The position numbers and the translations under genes were made by a program. Source: a virus. Taken from it: a DNA stretch of 64,000 bases. Shown here piece after piece: positions 37,273 through 46,413 of the stretch. The stretch lies in IMG/VR virus record IMGVR_UViG_3300040751_002080, positions 1 through 64,000 of that record; one strand, 5' to 3'. The notes under the pieces are model-generated. The model saw only the letters and a program-made list of their open reading frames with translations. It was not told the DNA's origin and ran no database searches. Numbering within the stretch: the stretch's first letter is position 1; every line of letters starts with the position of its first letter.

Positions 37273-37489
37273 CTAATATCAACTTTACATCTTTACCAGG
37301 GCCAGAATTACTAGGTAGGTCGCCATACTCGTCAATGTACCAGGCAATGACAGCCTTATACCAGTTTTGACTGTTGTGGTGTGCTTGCTTGTTAAACTGC
37401 CAAATATTATTATTTGTAGCTTGTATTGTACTAAGAGCTCTTGCACTTTCTTTTTGAAGTTCTCTTACACTTAGTTCACTTATATCCAA
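37265..37489 (-). CDS. Small protein of unknown function (74 aa)
   Basis: A 74-residue protein beginning with TTG inside the end of the upstream gene. It is hydrophilic with a helix (VRELQKESARAL), an Asn/Gln-rich middle (TNNNIWQFNKQAHH), an aromatic stretch (NWYKAVIAWYIDEY) and a Gly/Pro/Ser end. I recognise no family. It lies between the repeat-bearing methyltransferase and an SGNH gene, overlapping both, so it is probably expressed. It is the only short gene inside the radical SAM island and so the only candidate for a peptide substrate, though nothing in it looks like a leader/core. It has no Cys. Confidence 0.5.
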   Translation of the reverse strand: MDISELSVRELQKESARALSTIQATNNNIWQFNKQAHHNSQNWYKAVIAWYIDEYGDLPSNSGPGKDVKLILDD

Positions 37490-38519
37490 TTCTCATAAAC
37501 CTTTTGTATTGCGGTAGTTCTAGTTCTCCGCTGTATAACTCTTCACCTAGTGGTACTTGTTTTGCAAAACTTTCAAGAGTTTCGTGACAGTTGACATGTT
37601 CTTTGATTTTAAAATAGTTGTTACTTTGCATTATTACTAGACTTCCGAATGTTATGTTATTGTACCAACTATCAAAGTTATTTATATGTTCACAGCTTGT
37701 GTTGATAACTGTATCTGGAACTGTCCACAATCTCTGAGTTGTTCCATCAGTTTTGTTTACATCATATATATGTTCATCAAACCGTATTTCGTGTATGTCT
37801 TCGGTACTAGCTTTAAACTTCCATTTTTCCTCTACCCACTTTTTATTAAATATTTCTGCTATTTTCCAAACATTTGGATCAACATCAAAACTTCGGATAT
37901 TTTCTATTTTTATTCCGCTTTCAAACAACATAGTAGCAAGAGTACCATACCATCCTGCACAAAGAAATACTTTACCTAGTTCTACATTACAGTTTTTAAG
38001 TTCATTTATTAACCAAAGTTTACTTTGTAGCTGACCTCTACTAAAACAATCTTCGTCTATTTCAATATTATTAGTTTGAAAGTTTTTAAATGCATCAACA
38101 AAATAGGTGCTGTCTCTATCTTTTAAGAGTCTAAATACACTCCATATATTATCATCCATTACAGCTTTTCTTAAATCTTCGTTTCCAACCAATCTAAAAA
38201 TACTATGCATATTATCTTCAAGAACTGCTTTTCTTAAATCTTCGTTGCCCGGAAGCAATCTAAATAAACTATGTAAGTTTTGTTCTAATACTGCTTTACG
38301 CAAGTCTTCAATGTCGCCGACAGCTCGTGTATTGTCTATACATCGAAAAATACTGTAAATATTTTTTGTTAAAATAGCACTACGTAAATCATCATTAGAC
38401 GTAAACTCTAATATAGAACTCAAATCAGAATCAATATATGCACGGCGTAAGTTTTTAAAATATTCATCTTGTGGATTTAATATTTCAAATCTATCTAATA
38501 GCTTATGTATTTCCATCAT
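37476..38519 (-). CDS. Methyltransferase-like protein with N-terminal helical repeats
   Basis: A 347-residue protein with two parts. Residues 23-132 hold five copies of a repeat of about 22 residues (consensus ..DLRKAVLEDNxHSIFRLL..), visible also as near-identical DNA at 38160-38330. Residues 180-347 resemble a Rossmann methyltransferase: KVFLCAGWYGTLATML in the motif I place and IRSFDVDPNVWKIA with the acidic residue after strand 2. Similar fusions are recalled from T4-like marine phages. The repeats probably form a helical solenoid for protein or peptide binding. A good AAAGGA ribosome-binding site precedes the ATG at 38519. Second gene of the 40146 operon. Confidence 0.7.
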   Translation of the reverse strand: MMEIHKLLDRFEILNPQDEYFKNLRRAYIDSDLSSILEFTSNDDLRSAILTKNIYSIFRCIDNTRAVGDIEDLRKAVLEQNLHSLFRLLPGNEDLRKAVLEDNMHSIFRLVGNEDLRKAVMDDNIWSVFRLLKDRDSTYFVDAFKNFQTNNIEIDEDCFSRGQLQSKLWLINELKNCNVELGKVFLCAGWYGTLATMLFESGIKIENIRSFDVDPNVWKIAEIFNKKWVEEKWKFKASTEDIHEIRFDEHIYDVNKTDGTTQRLWTVPDTVINTSCEHINNFDSWYNNITFGSLVIMQSNNYFKIKEHVNCHETLESFAKQVPLGEELYSGELELPQYKRFMRIGYK

Positions 38520-40146
38520 ACTTTTCCTTTAACCAATCAAAGTCATTGATGTTTTTTAGTGCTACAGTATTGCCTTTATTACGAGTACCGTATGCGGTTC
38601 CTGCTTTGGCACCTTGCAAAGCATCTTCTCCGAACGGAGTATCAGGTAATACATGCATACACCAAGTCCTTAAACGTTCATTAGTTTCCTTACTCTTTTG
38701 CCTATCAATGACTTTACTTGATAACTTTGCACATTCTCTAAATGCACTTTTCCATGCATTAAAAGGATCTGTATTAAATGCTGTGATATTTGAAACTTTT
38801 GGCATAGCTACAAACTTATCACTAATACTTGTAGTCATGTCGGGTTTGCTAGTGTCCATGTTGATAGTTTCGTGTTTCGGAAATAACTTAATACCTCCAT
38901 ATCCGTAAACCAATCCATTTACTGGATTTTTACTGCGCCATACGTGTACGTGATTATACTGCCAAGCAGGAACTTGCCAATCAAAATTAAAATCATCAAC
39001 AACTACGGCATCACCATCAACTATATAAAACATAGGTGTATCACACACTTTTGCTGCTTCAATATGTGCTTGATGTATTCCTTTAACTCCGTGTACTCTA
39101 TGTATTACTCTGTCTGGAAATCTAGTTTTTAGATTTTCAAAGTTTTCATCTGCATTTGGTTCTTGATAACTAATAAAAACTATATCATACAACACAGGTA
39201 TACTAGCTGCAATATCATGTTCTTTTTTATTAGCAATAAATCTAAATAGCCATTCACGTTCGCTAATTTTAGAATGTTTACTACAAAGTATAACTCCGTC
39301 ATGGAACTTACCATTTAAAAACATATGATTTATTTTTCTATCAAATACATTGTCATGTGGAAAATATTGATCAAAGTTAAAATCGTTAGATACAATGACA
39401 CTAGACGGAACAACATAAAACATTTCTGTAGCACTAGTCTCTAATGCTGACAAATATTCTTCATAGGTATCTATTGCAAATACATCATATTTTGTAGGTC
39501 CACTAGCTACTGTTTTGTGTTCAATTTTATTGACTATAAACCTGTGTTCAACTTCTTTTTTAGATAACTCAGATTTTTTACTACAAAGGAACAAGCCATT
39601 ATATAACTCTTTGTCATCAACTTGATGCACAAATGCATGATTTTGCGAAAGTAGTTGTACTTCACGATGTGGAATATAATAGTTGTTAACAAACTCTGTA
39701 TCAATACCAATATTAGCAGTACTCATCCAAAACATATCTGTTTCACTAGTTTCTAATGCAGACAAATAATCTGCATATGTATCAATGTTAAAAATATCAT
39801 ACGCACAAGGTCTGCTTGCTTGTATATCAACTTCTTTTTTATTAACAAAAAATCGATGTTGTAACTCTTTAACTGACACTTCTGAAGATTTTGGTATTAG
39901 ACAGACTCCATCATAATATTCATTGTTTTTGAATACATGTATGTACTCTGTACTCCATGCATCTGGCTCGTAATCAAAGTTAAAGTCATTGTTTATTATA
40001 ATGTCGGGCCAAACCACCCAAAACATTTTTGTTATACAAATACGCTTTGCATCATCTAGTGTGTTTGCATGTTTTAAAAGCGGAAATCGTTGTTTTGCAG
40101 ACTTCCACTGTTTGTTTTTTTCGCCAATAAAGATTATATCATACAT
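38503..40146 (-). CDS. Multi-module glycosyltransferase-like protein
   Basis: The 547-residue protein has four related modules: residues 1-117, 118-221, 222-319 and 320-547. Each contains a YDIIF/YDVF strand, a MFWVV/MFYVV strand, a DFNFD element and an ending with HRF.VNKKEH. Only the fourth has an acidic DGD motif (377-379, IVDGDAVV) as in GT-A glycosyltransferases, plus a larger C-terminal part with YGYGGIKLFPK. The three N-terminal modules look like degenerate copies lacking the metal-binding acid pair. The C-terminal module is related to 46413-47336. The gene is the first of the island and is read from a sigma70 promoter with no ribosome-binding site. Donor and acceptor are unknown. Confidence 0.7.
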   Translation of the reverse strand: MYDIIFIGEKNKQWKSAKQRFPLLKHANTLDDAKRICITKMFWVVWPDIIINNDFNFDYEPDAWSTEYIHVFKNNEYYDGVCLIPKSSEVSVKELQHRFFVNKKEVDIQASRPCAYDIFNIDTYADYLSALETSETDMFWMSTANIGIDTEFVNNYYIPHREVQLLSQNHAFVHQVDDKELYNGLFLCSKKSELSKKEVEHRFIVNKIEHKTVASGPTKYDVFAIDTYEEYLSALETSATEMFYVVPSSVIVSNDFNFDQYFPHDNVFDRKINHMFLNGKFHDGVILCSKHSKISEREWLFRFIANKKEHDIAASIPVLYDIVFISYQEPNADENFENLKTRFPDRVIHRVHGVKGIHQAHIEAAKVCDTPMFYIVDGDAVVVDDFNFDWQVPAWQYNHVHVWRSKNPVNGLVYGYGGIKLFPKHETINMDTSKPDMTTSISDKFVAMPKVSNITAFNTDPFNAWKSAFRECAKLSSKVIDRQKSKETNERLRTWCMHVLPDTPFGEDALQGAKAGTAYGTRNKGNTVALKNINDFDWLKEKYDGNT

Positions 40147-40182: not shown

Positions 40183-40193
40183 GAACAGAATGT

Positions 40194-40201
40194 GATAAAT
40201 A
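40194..40201 (+). promoter_or_regulatory. T4-type late promoter box
   Basis: GATAAATA lies 23 bases before the ATG of the tail-fibre gene, followed by a GAGAAGAGG purine run as ribosome-binding site. It is the same octamer as at 53601-53608 and 58141-58148 (minus strand). In T4 and T4-like marine phages a TATAAATA-type box alone specifies late transcription. Confidence 0.55.
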
Positions 40202-40224
40202 CTAGAGAAGAGGAACCAACAAAA

Positions 40225-41640
40225 ATGACCGATTTTATACCAGGTGAAGCATACCGACTAGATATTATTACAGCAGACGAGACAGTGATTGTCGACAGCT
40301 GGCAGGGACAGATTAAAGCAAGTGTTGTTGATATCAATGGTATTATACTAGTCGATGTTGATACTGGAAAATTATACGGTACGTTGGTTGGTACCATTGA
40401 AGACGCTAACGGCAATAATGTTTTATCCTCAACAGGTGATCTAACTGGTAGTGTTACTGGTAGTGTATACGACAACGACGGTGCTTTAGCATTTGATGGC
40501 GAAAACGGAACGGTTATTGCTAATGTTGTTGGCAATGTTGTAGATAGCGAAGGCGATATTATTGTTAATACCGGAGCAAGATCTATTATAGCAGATAGTA
40601 TTACTGGCTCATTTTATGGTGACTTAACAGGTAGTATCACAGCAGATAGTGTAATATACGGTACATTTAATGGCGATTTTAACGGTACAAGTTATGGAGA
40701 CTTTTTTGGGGATACTACAGGTACACACACAGGCGATGTAGTAGGTGATGTAGTAGGTGATGTAACAGGTAATGTCACAGGCAATCTTACCGGCGAACTA
40801 CTTGCTATCCAGCCAGGCGATGATATTGCTACACGTCTTACCGGACATAACAACACTGGCGGATACAATCAGTGGGAGTTTTACGGTGGACTTGCACACC
40901 CAGTGTATCCTGCAGAAGATGCAGTTGCACGTGGTCCTATAGTAAATATTGGTGCAACTAGAGCCGACACAGAAGTAAGAGCCAACTTAAATCATTATGA
41001 TGGCACGCCAGTGATGAGATTGTCTTTGGAGAGTTTGCCGACTTACAAAGCCGATTTCATAGGAAGACTTGTTGGAGCAGTTGCATACGATACACAAGGC
41101 GATAATGGTATTACTAATATTATATCCGGAGAAAGCAACGGTACACTTATTAGTGGCATAAATGATAAGATAAATATTGGTGGTGAAAATGACGAAGTAA
41201 ATATCATTGCCGATAGTCTAACTATACAAACGGATTCAATAGACTCGCTTTCGCATAGAGGATCAAATAATAACAAAACATCTCTACTAAACAATGACGA
41301 ACTTTTAAGTATTGAAAGTTGGGGTTACAACGGAACTGAATACAAACGAGGCGGAATGTTTGGATTTAAAGTTGACGGCACACCTGATGCAAACGGAAAT
41401 ACCATACCAACAGGGTTTGGTGTTCAGCTGAGTACATCTACTAGTACACACGTTACAAATATAGCAAACAGACTAGAGTTTAATAACAAAGGTGTATTAG
41501 AAGTTCCAATATTTAAAGCAAGAGGCACCACATTTGCCGACAGAGATAGTATGATAGCAGAAGCAGGCATGATATTATTTAATACTAGCAACAACAAGTT
41601 TCAAGGCTATGATGGAATATCTTGGGTTGACTTACATTAA
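40225..41640 (+). CDS. Tail fibre/adhesin-like structural protein
   Basis: The 471-residue protein from the ATG at 40225 (MTDFIPGEAYRL) is preferred to an in-frame GTG at 40192, which lies in the promoter. It is rich in Gly, Asp, Asn, Thr and Val, with runs of short repeats such as GDVVGDVVGDVTGNVTGN (residues 170-190) that suggest a beta-solenoid shaft. The C-terminal EAGMILFNTSNNKFQGYDG ending is typical of tail-fibre tips of T4-like marine phages. It is read from a late promoter, alone among the plus-strand genes here, and is separated from the main structural module by about 9 kb. Receptor binding is a likely role. Confidence 0.75.
   Translation: MTDFIPGEAYRLDIITADETVIVDSWQGQIKASVVDINGIILVDVDTGKLYGTLVGTIEDANGNNVLSSTGDLTGSVTGSVYDNDGALAFDGENGTVIANVVGNVVDSEGDIIVNTGARSIIADSITGSFYGDLTGSITADSVIYGTFNGDFNGTSYGDFFGDTTGTHTGDVVGDVVGDVTGNVTGNLTGELLAIQPGDDIATRLTGHNNTGGYNQWEFYGGLAHPVYPAEDAVARGPIVNIGATRADTEVRANLNHYDGTPVMRLSLESLPTYKADFIGRLVGAVAYDTQGDNGITNIISGESNGTLISGINDKINIGGENDEVNIIADSLTIQTDSIDSLSHRGSNNNKTSLLNNDELLSIESWGYNGTEYKRGGMFGFKVDGTPDANGNTIPTGFGVQLSTSTSTHVTNIANRLEFNNKGVLEVPIFKARGTTFADRDSMIAEAGMILFNTSNNKFQGYDGISWVDLH
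40732..40791 (+). repeat. 12-base tandem repeat within the tail-fibre gene
   Basis: Five in-frame 12-base units of the form GGTGATGTAGTA encode Gly-(Asp/Asn)-Val-x or similar. The first three differ by only 1-3 bases; the last two are more diverged. Such a repeat can expand or contract by slippage to change fibre length. Confidence 0.7.
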
Positions 41641-41655
41641 ATAATATGCTATAGT
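41627..41655 (+). promoter_or_regulatory. Sigma70-type promoter with extended -10
   Basis: TTGACT (41627-41632), a 17-base spacer and TGCTATAGT (-10 TATAGT at 41650-41655, with TG one base upstream of it) precede the DUF6356-like gene by 37 bases. The -35 box lies inside the end of the tail-fibre gene. A GGAA ribosome-binding site follows, so this transcript has a leader. It would drive the membrane protein, ligase, halogenase and acyltransferase genes. Confidence 0.7.
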
Positions 41656-41692
41656 AACAACATAATAAAGTATTGTTAAAGGAAATTAAAAT

Positions 41693-41911
41693 ATGTTGTT
41701 TGAATGGAATCACTTAAAAAAAGCAAACGCTAACTATTTTACTCATTGTTTTATTGCAGTTTGTTATAGTTTTATCGGTCTTGGTATTTTTGCATTAGGA
41801 ATACTACATGCATTTTTTCCGTTTATGTTTGGATTTACACCCTATAAACTTGCTAAGAAAATCACAGATGGTACTGAAAAAAACTTTCCTGCGTGTATTA
41901 ACGAGAAATAA
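41693..41911 (+). CDS. Small membrane protein, DUF6356-like
   Basis: A 72-residue protein with two hydrophobic segments: CFIAVCYSFIGLGIFALG and ILHAFFPFMFGF (residues about 19-51), with a lysine-rich C-terminus (TPYKLAKKITDG). The layout (N-terminal E/H-rich segment, a short pair of membrane spans with HAxFPF) corresponds to DUF6356, as I remember that family; its function is unknown. It is preceded by an AAAGGAAA ribosome-binding site and followed, with no gap, by the AMP-forming ligase. It could anchor or export the ligase/halogenase product, but that is only suggested by position. Confidence 0.65.
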   Translation: MLFEWNHLKKANANYFTHCFIAVCYSFIGLGIFALGILHAFFPFMFGFTPYKLAKKITDGTEKNFPACINEK

Positions 41912-42970
41912 ATGAAGATATTCATAGACGGTGAACAAATATCTCAACAGTGGATCAGTGACTATACGTTAAGTAGTCCTGTAGATTGCTATAGTGATAA
42001 ACCCGACTGGGAACAAAATGTACTAAAACTGTTGCACAACTGGTATTCAAATTCTGGATACAGCTACGGTTATAGAGGCGATAAGTTTTTAAATCTTAGT
42101 ACAAGCGGCACAACCGGATTTCCACAACATATTGGTCATTCAAGAGAAACTATCGAACAAGTTGTTGATTCTAATATTAAAATACTAGGGTTAGATAAAA
42201 ATAGTAAAATATTAAGTTACTATTCACCTCGTGGTATTGCGTTTAGTGTGCTAAGTGTGTATCTTGCATTGAAACTAGATTGCGAACTATACATTGAAAC
42301 ATTCAAAGGCATTGACTATATAAATCGTGTACACGAAATACGTCCAACACACACATTGTTATTGCCTAATGTTTGGAAAACATTATACACACACGACAAA
42401 TGGAAAACACTAGATTATAGTAGTTTACAAACTGTTATTACAGGTAGTGACTTTACACCAATAGGAATGTTAGACGAACTACGTGAACACAATCCAGACA
42501 AAGTATACAATGTATATGGCAGTACTGAAGTGCCTCCTATAGTATTGTACAGTGAAGAAGAAAACACATACACAATAGACAGTATTGTTCCTGGAGCAGA
42601 AGTAGATATTGTAAATGGACAGATTGCTTGTAAATGGAGTAGCCAATCAGACATCTGGATAAGTGGCGATTGTGTTGAAGGAGATAGGAATCGGTTTACA
42701 CTAAATGGGCGTGTTCCAAATATGTTTAAACAAAATACAGTACGTGTGTATCCCGAACAAATAGAAAAAGCGGCGGTTGCAGCTGGAGCAGAACTTGCAC
42801 TGTGTCAACAAGTTAAAAATCAGTGTGTGTTACACTATACAGGCAATATAAATGATTTAAAAACATTTAACGACACTTACAAATATATTCCAAGATTTAG
42901 ACTACGGGCAGTAGATCATATTGCAGTAGATGACAATCTTAAAAAGATTATAAGGACACAAACATTTTGA
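41912..42970 (+). CDS. Compact AMP-forming acyl ligase (ANL superfamily)
   Basis: The 352-residue protein has the adenylate-forming motifs in order: STSGTTGFPQ at 63-72 (core P-loop), VYGSTEVPP near residue 206 (A5-type), SGDCVEGD near 252 and GRVPNMFK (A7/A8), and LKKIIR at the C-terminus with the catalytic-type Lys. Family members activate a carboxylic acid with ATP to acyl-AMP and pass it to CoA, a carrier or an amine. It is only about 350 residues against 500-600, having lost most of the N-terminal lobe. No acyl-carrier gene is seen. The halogenase start overlaps its stop (TTGA), so the two are coupled: a carboxylate may be activated and halogenated in turn. Confidence 0.85.
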   Translation: MKIFIDGEQISQQWISDYTLSSPVDCYSDKPDWEQNVLKLLHNWYSNSGYSYGYRGDKFLNLSTSGTTGFPQHIGHSRETIEQVVDSNIKILGLDKNSKILSYYSPRGIAFSVLSVYLALKLDCELYIETFKGIDYINRVHEIRPTHTLLLPNVWKTLYTHDKWKTLDYSSLQTVITGSDFTPIGMLDELREHNPDKVYNVYGSTEVPPIVLYSEEENTYTIDSIVPGAEVDIVNGQIACKWSSQSDIWISGDCVEGDRNRFTLNGRVPNMFKQNTVRVYPEQIEKAAVAAGAELALCQQVKNQCVLHYTGNINDLKTFNDTYKYIPRFRLRAVDHIAVDDNLKKIIRTQTF

Positions 42971-44463
42971 GAATAATAGTTTTAGGTGCCGGAACAGCTG
43001 GTGCGATTGCTGCAGGTATCATAAAAAAACGCAGACCTGATATTGAAGTTTTACAAATTCACAGTGAACAAGTTGGTATTATCGGAGTCGGCGAAAGTGT
43101 TACTCCTTATTTAAATCATGCATTCCACGAACTTGGTATGGTTGAAAAAGATTGGATGACTGCAACTGGTAGTATGTACAAACTAGGAAACAAGTTTGAA
43201 GGATGGACAGACGAAGATCATTACTTTGCATTTACATACAACAAGCCTATTGATAAACTTATTAATAATAAACCTATAGACTGGAATGATATCAAAAGTA
43301 TAAACGAAACTGATATTAGACTTACTGACGTATGGTGTGATTTGTACAATCAAGGAATGGTAAACAACTTTAGTGCAAGTTTTAATGATTTGCACAATTC
43401 ATTAGTCGACAATACATTTGATTTTAAGTTACTTGATCGCACTTGTCTCAACTACAGTTATCATATTAATGCAGAAAAACTTGCACCTTACATAAGAAAA
43501 AATATTAATAATAAACTTGGTGTAATAGAAATAGAAGGTAAAGTTGTCAAAGTTAATACCAACGACAACGGTGTACACAGTGTTGAGATGGAAAACGGAG
43601 AAGTATATACGTCCGATTACTGGTTTGATTGCAGTGGATTTAATAGATTACTAATCAACGAACTTGACGATAGCTTTCATACATACGACTATTGTAAAGC
43701 AAATAGTGCAGTAGTAATGCCAATAGAATACACTTCGCAAGACCAACTAACAAATCATACTAGAACTATTTGGTTAGAACAAGGATGGCAGTTTAAAATA
43801 GGATTAACCGAACGTATCGGAACTGGTATTATTTACAGTGATGAATATTTTAGCGATGAAGAAATAAAACAACTATTGTTAGAAAAAGAAAATCATAAAA
43901 ACATCCGTCCACCAAAAATACTAAAATGGACGCCTGGTAGAATGGTCAATCCTGCTATAGATAATGTGTTTAGTATAGGAATGGCAGCAGGATTCTGCGA
44001 GCCAATGGAAGCAAATGCGTTATACATTACAATGGCAACTATTAAAAGAGCATTACACAGTATTAACCAAGACGAAAATAGAAATACATTTAACAAAGTT
44101 ATCAATCATACACTAGACGATACTGCATTTTTTATTGCCGCACATTATACACTTTGTGAAAAAGGTAATAACGCATACTGGAATGATATGCGTGAAATAG
44201 GTATAAAACAAAATCACAAGCAACTATTACTGGAAAAGTACAACGATGTAAAAAATAATATGGAAAGTGCTGTAAATCATTATACAATGTATCCAGATTA
44301 CATGTGGATGGAACTAGCATCGGCATGGTGTAAAGACATTAGTACTTGGAGTAAAAATACAGATCCTAGACTACAGCAGCAAGTTTTAGAATATTTTAGA
44401 AAATCAAAAAGTATCACAACCAATCAATATCCAGAAGAAATGAGGAAGTTTCATAATGTATAG
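42967..44463 (+). CDS. Flavin-dependent tryptophan halogenase-like enzyme
   Basis: The 498-residue protein has GAGTAG at 7-12 (FAD GxGxxG), GVGESVTPYL at 40-49, and YKLGNKFEGW with Lys72 in the position of the catalytic Lys of PrnA-type halogenases. The family WxWxIP motif reads GWQFKIGL here, with Phe and Gly in place of the second Trp and Pro. The TTG start is chosen because it overlaps the preceding stop. Halogenases use FADH2, O2 and chloride or bromide (or iodide) to halogenate aromatic rings. A phage halogenase, VirX1 from a cyanophage, is known and can iodinate; this gene may be related. Coupled with an AMP ligase, which is unusual. Confidence 0.82.
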   Translation: MRIIVLGAGTAGAIAAGIIKKRRPDIEVLQIHSEQVGIIGVGESVTPYLNHAFHELGMVEKDWMTATGSMYKLGNKFEGWTDEDHYFAFTYNKPIDKLINNKPIDWNDIKSINETDIRLTDVWCDLYNQGMVNNFSASFNDLHNSLVDNTFDFKLLDRTCLNYSYHINAEKLAPYIRKNINNKLGVIEIEGKVVKVNTNDNGVHSVEMENGEVYTSDYWFDCSGFNRLLINELDDSFHTYDYCKANSAVVMPIEYTSQDQLTNHTRTIWLEQGWQFKIGLTERIGTGIIYSDEYFSDEEIKQLLLEKENHKNIRPPKILKWTPGRMVNPAIDNVFSIGMAAGFCEPMEANALYITMATIKRALHSINQDENRNTFNKVINHTLDDTAFFIAAHYTLCEKGNNAYWNDMREIGIKQNHKQLLLEKYNDVKNNMESAVNHYTMYPDYMWMELASAWCKDISTWSKNTDPRLQQQVLEYFRKSKSITTNQYPEEMRKFHNV

Positions 44464-45043
44464 ATTTGAAATATACAACGGCACACAAGATTTAACACAA
44501 TGGTATAAGGATGCCGAAGAAAAAGGTTACTATAATAATAGCAACAAAGAGATGCTAGTTGACTGGGTTGAAAAACATGAAGACGCAACACTGTTTTTGT
44601 TGTACTACAATGAACATATTGTAGGCAATAGTGTTGTTCATAGTTTAAAAGAGCTGGGAATACTTGGTAAAAATGCATATCGCATTGGCGCAAGAACTTG
44701 TTTGATTAGAGACAGAATTGACGGTGGCAGAGTTTATGCTCCAGCTAATGGCCCAGTAAATCATCATACTGTGCAAATGTTACTTCCTATATGTATCGAA
44801 CATGTAGGAAGAGACAAGCCTGTGTATATTAGTACACACGAAGGCGGAGTGGGAAGTCAAGACCGTGTACACAAAGTGTGGACATATTTTACAAACAAAC
44901 TAGGCATCACCGGTGACAGCATTGATTTAGAATACAAAGGTGCATTCCAAACTTTTAGACGGATTGATGTTGATAGGATGTATGATTTACTAAAAGAAGC
45001 AAGATGGCCCGAGGCAGAGCAAGCTATTCCACTGTTTAGTTAA
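44456..45043 (+). CDS. Unknown protein, possibly GNAT-like acyltransferase
   Basis: A 195-residue protein without a certain family match. A strand with LFLLYYNEHIVGNSVVHSL, then RIGARTCLIRD, and later PVYISTHEGGVGSQDRVHK and GAFQTFRRIDV are compatible with a GNAT-type mixed alpha/beta fold, but the acetyl-CoA pyrophosphate loop (R/QxxGxG/A) is not clear; GGVGSQ is a poor candidate. It overlaps the halogenase gene by 8 bases and is the last of the plus-strand cassette. The stop codon overlaps the stop of the convergent radical SAM gene. It is likely to process the ligase/halogenase product. Confidence 0.45.
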   Translation: MYRFEIYNGTQDLTQWYKDAEEKGYYNNSNKEMLVDWVEKHEDATLFLLYYNEHIVGNSVVHSLKELGILGKNAYRIGARTCLIRDRIDGGRVYAPANGPVNHHTVQMLLPICIEHVGRDKPVYISTHEGGVGSQDRVHKVWTYFTNKLGITGDSIDLEYKGAFQTFRRIDVDRMYDLLKEARWPEAEQAIPLFS

Positions 45044-46413
45044 ACGTATTTCTTACAAAGTTCAAAAAAGTCTGACATCTCTGGAAAAACTTGTTCATGA
45101 TCTACATTACGTCTACGACCTTGCTCTTCAAAGAAGTTGTGAAAATCTCTACGTCCTTGAATAACTTTATCTAATGGATATTCAGTAGACTCCATGTAAT
45201 CAACAACACGTCTAAACTTTTCATACTCAATAGTACTAAACGCATCTTTGCGATTATCATCTGTATTCTCTTTGATAAACTGCAAATGATCATGCATATA
45301 ACTCATGTAGTTTTTAGGCAGGATATTAATATCGTACTGCAACGGTTCTTTCAAATGCGGTGTGTCAAATCCTAATCGTTGCCATCTGTGCGTTTCTACA
45401 TCATTATATTTTTTGCGCCATTCAAGAATCTTTTCAAGCAATGTACGGAATGTAGTGACACTGAAGATGTTAAATGTAATCATAATAACCATCGGTGCTT
45501 CGCAGTTGCGCATAAAATAATCCAAGTTGCGTTCAAACACTTCAATGTCTAATCCATCACGAATATACTCAGCACGTTTTCCCCAAGTATCAATACTTGT
45601 AAACATTTTAAAACGTCTAATCTTGTTGTTTGTCAACAAGTCATTCACACGGTTTGTAAACTTTTCTAACTGTTTTGGTTTGCCGCCTAAGTTGCTGTTG
45701 CAGTTTAGTTCTAAATCTGGTTTAGGGTCTGCATCCAGCATATCAAATAGTTTATATGTGCTCTGCTGTATTGTAGGCTCGCCGCCTGTAATGCGTAAAA
45801 TATGTAAGTCTTTACTTAACTCTGGCCACCACTTCCAAAATGCATCTAAATACGGATTGTTTTGTTCTTCGAATATTTCAAACCAGTCAATATCACATCT
45901 GTGATTCTTTACGTTTGTGTAAGGCCCGTGTTGCTTGATCTCTTGATGATATCTGCTGCTGGCTTTTGGATGACAATATCCACAGCGGAAGTTACATTCA
46001 TTACCAAACGAGACTTCCAAGTATTCAGGATTAACATCAAACTCTGCGCCGCCTTCTTTAACAGCTTTCAAGCGTTCTTTAAAGAAGATAGTTTGGTTGC
46101 GTTGTTTTCTATCGCTAACATAATCTTTGCCCATTGCTTCAATCTTCCAGCAATAGTTACATCCGCTAGGTTGCTCGCCTTTCATCATAGCAGCACGTTC
46201 TGCTTTTTTCTGTACTGTATTATGAATAGCACTCGGATTAGTTAGAAGTGGCGCTGCATCAATCTTGTGCGGGGCAGGATGATAACAACTGTGTGTCTCT
46301 CCTGTTTGGAAATAAATGTTTGCGTGATACCATTTAGCAAAACAAAACGTAGGAGATATTTCCTGCGTGATTTTATCAATCCGCTTGATTTCTTCGCTTT
46401 CGCTGCGTTCCAT
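45040..46413 (-). CDS. Radical SAM protein with N-terminal twitch-like domain
   Basis: The 457-residue protein is the seventeenth radical SAM protein here and the only one outside the main island. It has a N-terminal FCFAKWYHANIYF (C24) and HSCYHP (C43), which is a variant of the CxxPW/CC pattern, then CNYC (85-88), and SFGNECNFRCGYC (C140, C144, C147), with ITGGEPTIQ. The C-terminal part has ETHRWQRLGFDT and YKLFDML. It is the last gene of the 49888 operon, sharing one base with the glycosyltransferase gene upstream, so it may act on a sugar or glycoconjugate. Confidence 0.88.
   Translation of the reverse strand: MERSESEEIKRIDKITQEISPTFCFAKWYHANIYFQTGETHSCYHPAPHKIDAAPLLTNPSAIHNTVQKKAERAAMMKGEQPSGCNYCWKIEAMGKDYVSDRKQRNQTIFFKERLKAVKEGGAEFDVNPEYLEVSFGNECNFRCGYCHPKASSRYHQEIKQHGPYTNVKNHRCDIDWFEIFEEQNNPYLDAFWKWWPELSKDLHILRITGGEPTIQQSTYKLFDMLDADPKPDLELNCNSNLGGKPKQLEKFTNRVNDLLTNNKIRRFKMFTSIDTWGKRAEYIRDGLDIEVFERNLDYFMRNCEAPMVIMITFNIFSVTTFRTLLEKILEWRKKYNDVETHRWQRLGFDTPHLKEPLQYDINILPKNYMSYMHDHLQFIKENTDDNRKDAFSTIEYEKFRRVVDYMESTEYPLDKVIQGRRDFHNFFEEQGRRRNVDHEQVFPEMSDFFELCKKYV

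Follow-up and report, generated by a model that had tools for sequence, protein, structure and literature searches.

The window analyzed here comprises positions 1 to 64,000 of the IMG/VR virus record IMGVR_UViG_3300040751_002080, whose full length is 88,646 bases, and the element under study is a cassette of four open reading frames on its plus strand (41693-41911, 41912-42970, 42967-44463 and 44456-45043). They encode a small membrane protein, a compact adenosine monophosphate (AMP)-forming ligase (LIG), a halogenase-family flavoprotein (HAL) and a GNAT-fold protein (AT). The original prediction, made from the sequence alone, had proposed four tightly linked genes at this place, with LIG and HAL sharing a TTGA junction; our analysis bore out the open reading frames, the families and the junction. 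The features of the cassette are:

41627..41655, plus strand: sigma70-like promoter, TTGACT-17-TATAGT with TG before the -10 hexamer; best forward match, 10/12 consensus positions.
41693..41911, plus strand: DUF6356 small membrane protein, 72 amino acids; Pfam PF19883, 32.6 bits (cut-off 24.4).
41912..42970, plus strand: ANL (AMP-forming) ligase, LIG, 352 amino acids; PF00501 AMP-binding, 66.7 bits (cut-off 29.9).
42967..44463, plus strand: PF04820 flavoprotein, HAL, 498 amino acids, TTG start; Trp_halogenase, 240.8 bits (cut-off 21); phrog_2928.
44456..45043, plus strand: GNAT-fold protein, probable N-acyltransferase, AT, 195 amino acids; AF2 predicted local distance difference test (pLDDT) 85.8; Foldseek GNAT matches.

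The LIG gene begins at the base directly after the end of the DUF6356 gene, LIG and HAL overlap by the 4 bases TTGA, and HAL and AT overlap by 8 bases. The ratio of nonsynonymous to synonymous substitution rates (dN/dS) is well below 1 for LIG, HAL, AT and the DUF6356 gene (with dS saturated in several pairs), and all four genes are under purifying selection. The sigma70 promoter proposed ahead of the cassette was also upheld, although promoter-like sites in this AT-rich stretch are no more frequent than chance (28 observed, 27.9 expected): nearly all of nine aligned diverged relatives retain its TATAnT box. Because the -35 hexamer and the end of the upstream fibre-like coding sequence overlap, conservation of this hexamer is weaker evidence.

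The 352-residue LIG carries the motifs STSGTTG (63-69), YGSTE (202-206), SGD (251-253), GR..N.FK and RVYPEQIE (to 285), together with the C-terminal catalytic lysine, K345. Across two ligase clades, the ANL core motifs (P-loop-like STSGTTG, YGxTE, GD, GR and the C-terminal Lys) are nearly invariant. LIG lacks most of the N-terminal subdomain: the first profile position covered by its Pfam match is 170 of 384. The fold matches of its predicted model (pLDDT 76) are ANL enzymes, including 4gs5, which at 350 amino acids is as short as LIG. Adenylation motifs and fold are like those of the coronafacate ligase Cfl (7a9i), the amide bond synthetase McbA, MenE and 4-chlorobenzoyl-CoA ligase, whereas sequence similarity to these enzymes is weak (best E=2e-8). 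No close LIG relative was found in 50,697 annotated phage records, and no cellular relative in two GTDB genome scans by a method that detects only fairly close relatives.

HAL matches RebH, Thal and VirX1. Its start was taken as TTG because the protein must begin before its flavin adenine dinucleotide (FAD) motif, the N-terminal VLGAGTAG, which conforms to GxGxxG. A disabled FAD or Lys72 site had been named as grounds for abandoning a halogenase function; the FAD motif and K72 are both intact, and K72 and the catalytic E348 are invariant across 14 aligned proteins. VirX1 (cyanophage Syn10, PDB 6QGM) and the phrog_2928 phage 'tryptophan halogenases' belong to the same family, are phage-borne and keep the Lys/Glu pair; VirX1 is about 26% identical to the HAL of the window. 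As reference in our alignment, we used a protein of cyanophage syn9 whose match to VirX1 is full-length. This orthologue has no ligase beside it, whereas HAL adjoins LIG. In syn9 (L217 2419-5524), its gene comes immediately behind another halogenase gene and is followed by several 2-oxoglutarate oxygenase-like genes. A truncated HAL-like protein of another locus, L063, outside the 14-protein alignment and with EPMSANS for EPMEANA, has apparently lost the catalytic Glu.

For AT, no Pfam family exceeded its cut-off (FeeM, E=0.08). The top Foldseek matches of its model are GNAT proteins (probability 1.00, template modeling (TM) score about 0.5), among them the acyl-CoA/acyl-ACP N-acyltransferases BjaI and FeeM. 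The fold match (E about 2e-4) and the weak Pfam hint recall the N-acyl amino acid and acyl-homoserine-lactone synthases FeeM and BjaI, but TM scores are about 0.5, sequence identity is about 10%, and generic GNAT acetyltransferases score equally. The AT profile also hit TAL-effector repeats in the PDB, but these hits were discarded as an artefact of summing many sub-threshold repeats.

The evidence that LIG and HAL belong together comes from their relatives. In IMG/VR, we retrieved 22 close ligase loci and 78 by profile search, the wider set forming 27 clusters at 90% identity. A HAL-family gene directly adjoins LIG in 18 of the 27 clusters (in one of the 18, in some members only), mostly with overlapping codons. 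Fecal 'phage' records matching LIG or HAL were set aside, their enzymes being longer and generic and the gene context different. Four arrangements were found. The first two are fibre-[DUF6356]-LIG-HAL-AT and fibre-226aa-AT-LIG-HAL. The third lies in the replisome operon of a T4-type lineage, gp45-gp44-HAL-LIG-X-...-glutaredoxin-gp62-regA, where X is a protein of about 195 amino acids with no family assigned, sometimes followed by a fatty-acid desaturase. The fourth, on L063 (the contig of L011, 50,286 bases), comprises P450-like, AT-like, HAL-like, LIG-like and radical-SAM-like genes, all remote homologues. The names gp45, gp62, regA, glutaredoxin and P450 were given by reading of the sequences, gp44 by search and the desaturase by Pfam. 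In phage C48C1, which is the nearest reference by gp44, neither HAL nor LIG stands between the clamp-loader genes and the translation repressor. A desaturase-like membrane gene directly follows HAL-LIG-X in L111 (Pfam desaturase, E=2.7e-11) and, as read by eye, in L116, L110, L136 and L137.

Partners within the cassette are exchanged. A comparison by blastn with the related locus L005 gave 93.9% identity up to 42969, at the LIG stop, and 98.8% from 45047, after AT, delimiting the following segment:

42970..45046, no strand: exchange segment between near-identical flanks, with HAL and AT in the window and a different AT alone in L005.

Additionally, the LIG and HAL trees disagree. The L104 ligase groups with that of L102, which is of the replisome type (73% identity), and is only 48% identical to that of L099, whereas the HAL, AT and 226-aa genes of L104 and L099 are 60%, 65% and 70% identical, respectively. 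The ligase has thus been exchanged inside a conserved cassette, which argues for functional coupling and not for a single inherited linkage. From the first loci, AT type seemed to segregate strictly with HAL. The wider set contradicts this: the AT that accompanies HAL in L049 is a distant one, and in L033-type loci a close AT stands alone, HAL being absent. In G002, the fibre locus holds LIG-AT, and a HAL lies tens of kilobases from it, beside a GIY-YIG-like gene. L057 (1306-2949, the contig of L019) carries a separate 547-aa HAL-family gene, 39% identical, that adjoins a GIY-YIG-like gene, and the fibre locus of this phage is LIG-AT without HAL.

The recurrence of the same enzymes in other orders and positions in uncultured phages suggests one small phage-borne biosynthetic pathway, and a mobile module for acyl activation and tailoring is the best-supported reading of the locus. 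We give an even chance to its fuller form, a phage-encoded mobile mini-pathway of acid activation, oxidative tailoring and acyl transfer. LIG would convert a carboxylic acid to an acyl-AMP and perhaps an acyl-CoA; HAL would carry out an electrophilic oxidation of the acid or its product, most likely a halogenation, with reduced FAD from the host; and AT would transfer the acyl moiety to an amine, so that an acyl amide forms with no carrier protein involved. The amine acceptor might be part of the virion or of the cell surface, or else a free metabolite. The absence of a carrier protein noted earlier was borne out, as a search of 11 records, up to 170 kb long and with positive controls, gave no PP-binding domain (PF00550); a PF01613 flavin reductase was likewise absent from the 11 records, which may be fragments, and a host carrier or reductase could serve. 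As to the substrate, the aromatic acid proposed originally found no support, and the desaturase neighbor hints at fatty acids in one branch. Delivery of the product to a membrane is also unsupported: its sole hint is the DUF6356 protein, whose gene is missing at the cassette position in several relatives. Nevertheless, DUF6356-like genes also occur beside ligases in L096, L102, L103, L126 and L138, and this recurrence in other contexts is notable.

Several observations weigh against such a pathway. Most of the records are fragments. In most close relatives, the LIG stop abuts AT directly and HAL is absent from that place; of the AT-anchored contigs, LIG is nearby and HAL lacking in 42, both are present in 6, 1 further record begins inside HAL, and 13 have AT beside a radical-SAM-like gene without LIG or HAL. 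Five further contigs carry two other genes upstream of AT, and in L047 (4286-6005) and L201 (3277-5011), the slot between the fibre-like gene and AT holds a gene of about 218 amino acids and a TauD-like dioxygenase. Since AT occurs without LIG and HAL and a dioxygenase can take the same slot, AT seems to have the core role, with LIG, HAL or the dioxygenase as optional tailoring. The [QR]xxGx[GA] motif for coenzyme A (CoA) binding is absent from the 16 AT members checked, and homology of the X gene of the replisome lineage to AT was unsupported on comparison. Finally, two motifs of HAL are altered. The window has GWQFKIG in place of WxWxIP, and FCEPMEANA, with the Ser and Gly positions changed, in place of the tunnel motif FxxPxxSxG.

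This last point bears on the nature of the oxidative step. WxWxIP and FxxPxxSxG have been described as diagnostic for flavin-dependent halogenases (FDHs), the former with known exceptions (PMC8407142); WxWxIP has been proposed to prevent monooxygenation, and FxxPxxSxG has been reported for all active FDHs (PMC8407142). The VirX1 orthologue of syn9 retains both, whereas all the ligase-linked HALs in the alignment, from two clades, have GWxFxI for GWxWxIP and FxxP[ML]EANx for FxxPxxSxG. In the comparison with VirX1 proposed earlier, the Lys/Glu pair is common to both proteins and the two motifs are not, so that halogenation is not assured. HAL could instead be a flavin monooxygenase or oxidase on a halogenase fold, the cassette then hydroxylating or oxidizing the activated acid or its conjugate. 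We consider this the leading alternative but an unlikely one, at about one chance in four: the altered motifs of both clades and the TauD-like dioxygenase in the same slot favor it, and the invariance of the Lys/Glu pair in the 14 proteins, the PF04820 score far over the cut-off and the existence of FDHs without WxWxIP, such as Bmp5 (PMC8407142), speak against it. Judged on sequence, the oxidative step is probably a halogenation rather than a monooxygenation. In the proposal of acid activation and halogenation, the activation part gained from the intact adenylation motifs and the recurrent, partner-exchanging LIG-HAL unit, the halogenation part was weakened by the two altered motifs, and the core idea of acid activation with an oxidative, probably halogenating, tailoring step is plausible.

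The wider setting of the cassette is that of an uncultured marine myovirus, kin to the Atu_ph07-type jumbo phages. Baseplate and late sigma factor families were detected, and the nearest relatives of its baseplate wedge protein are those of the jumbo myoviruses Phosso, Atu_ph07 and SCTP-2 (about 35-37% identity). The genes flanking the cassette are:

40192..41640, plus strand: tail-fibre-like repeat protein; weak C-terminal PHROG matches, conserved neighbor in jumbo-phage loci.
45040..46413, minus strand: radical-SAM-like protein; Pfam Radical_SAM E=3.4e-5, below cut-off; phrog_14086 E=2.7e-10.

The radical-SAM-like gene adjoins AT in most loci. Around them, a region of about 48 kb among the tail genes (838-49544), mostly on the minus strand, is dense in genes read as radical-SAM-, oxygenase-, methyltransferase-, asparagine-synthase- and glycosyltransferase-like. 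Outside the cassette, most of the window is given over to tail genes and to radical-SAM-, oxygenase-, methyltransferase- and glycosyltransferase-like genes, as read from the sequences. Within it, a 547-aa protein (38503-40146) gives a weak glycosyltransferase hint and has apparent internal repeats; its relatives range from about 340 to 660 amino acids, as if the repeat number varied. A neighboring 347-aa protein (37476-38519) carries the short repeated motif EDLRKAVLEDNMHSIFRL.

This setting raises a second alternative, that the targets of the cassette enzymes are the tail-fibre-like protein of the phage itself or another part of the virion surface. AT lies near the fibre-like gene in jumbo-phage loci, the cassette stands between the fibre and radical-SAM genes, and some cyanophage halogenases lie near structural and oxygenase genes. 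In the second lineage, however, HAL-LIG is located between gp44 and gp62, away from the tail genes, and we rate this explanation, at about one in five, slightly below the monooxygenase one. It is improbable that unrelated cargo genes have piled up at hypervariable sites with no common pathway: the sites are variable and HAL, LIG, AT and DUF6356 are each found without the others in some records, but the repeated HAL-LIG adjacency, the varied orders, the codon overlaps and the exchange of one partner are hard to obtain by hitch-hiking. Hypermodification of phage DNA or nucleotides, with an acyl group placed on a modified base as the GNAT-related Mom acts on adenine, is very improbable; the cassette does lie inside the replication operon in one lineage and Mom is reported as an acyltransferase superfamily member (in a reference given in PMC7824862), but the surroundings of the cassette yielded no base-modification genes, and the argument is one of position.

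Among known systems, the closest in outline is a predicted 10-gene cluster for a halogenated metabolite in the jumbo cyanophage S-SSM6a (Iyer et al. 2021, PMC7824862), with a proposed role in capsule decoration or as a secondary metabolite (PMC7824862). Like the window, it belongs to a jumbo phage and has a halogenase together with oxygenases; unlike the window, it is described with carbamoyl transferases and a HemK-like methylase, with no AMP ligase or GNAT partner mentioned. For VirX1, no biosynthetic cluster is listed (PMC8407142). No match came from PADLOC, and none above a curated cut-off from NCBIfam, and we found no literature report of a phage AMP-ligase/halogenase pair in a search that was thin on subscription papers. 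It is conceivable, though we lean against it, that the cassette represents an undescribed mobile module, composed of a mini ANL ligase, a distinct 'EAN' branch of HAL and in some cases a GNAT protein, which uses no carrier to produce a halogenated acyl conjugate during infection and is shared by replacement between jumbo and T4-type phages.

Phage halogenases such as VirX1 are known catalysts whose natural pathway is unassigned, and a recurrent acid-activating partner gives a concrete substrate class for a branch related to VirX1. If the HALs do not halogenate, they would form a useful natural set showing the effect of altered motifs. Pathway genes within the core replication operon of marine T4-type phages would mean that the tailoring of small molecules is important at an early stage of infection, and the novel module, if true, points to the type of pathway that phage halogenases may serve.

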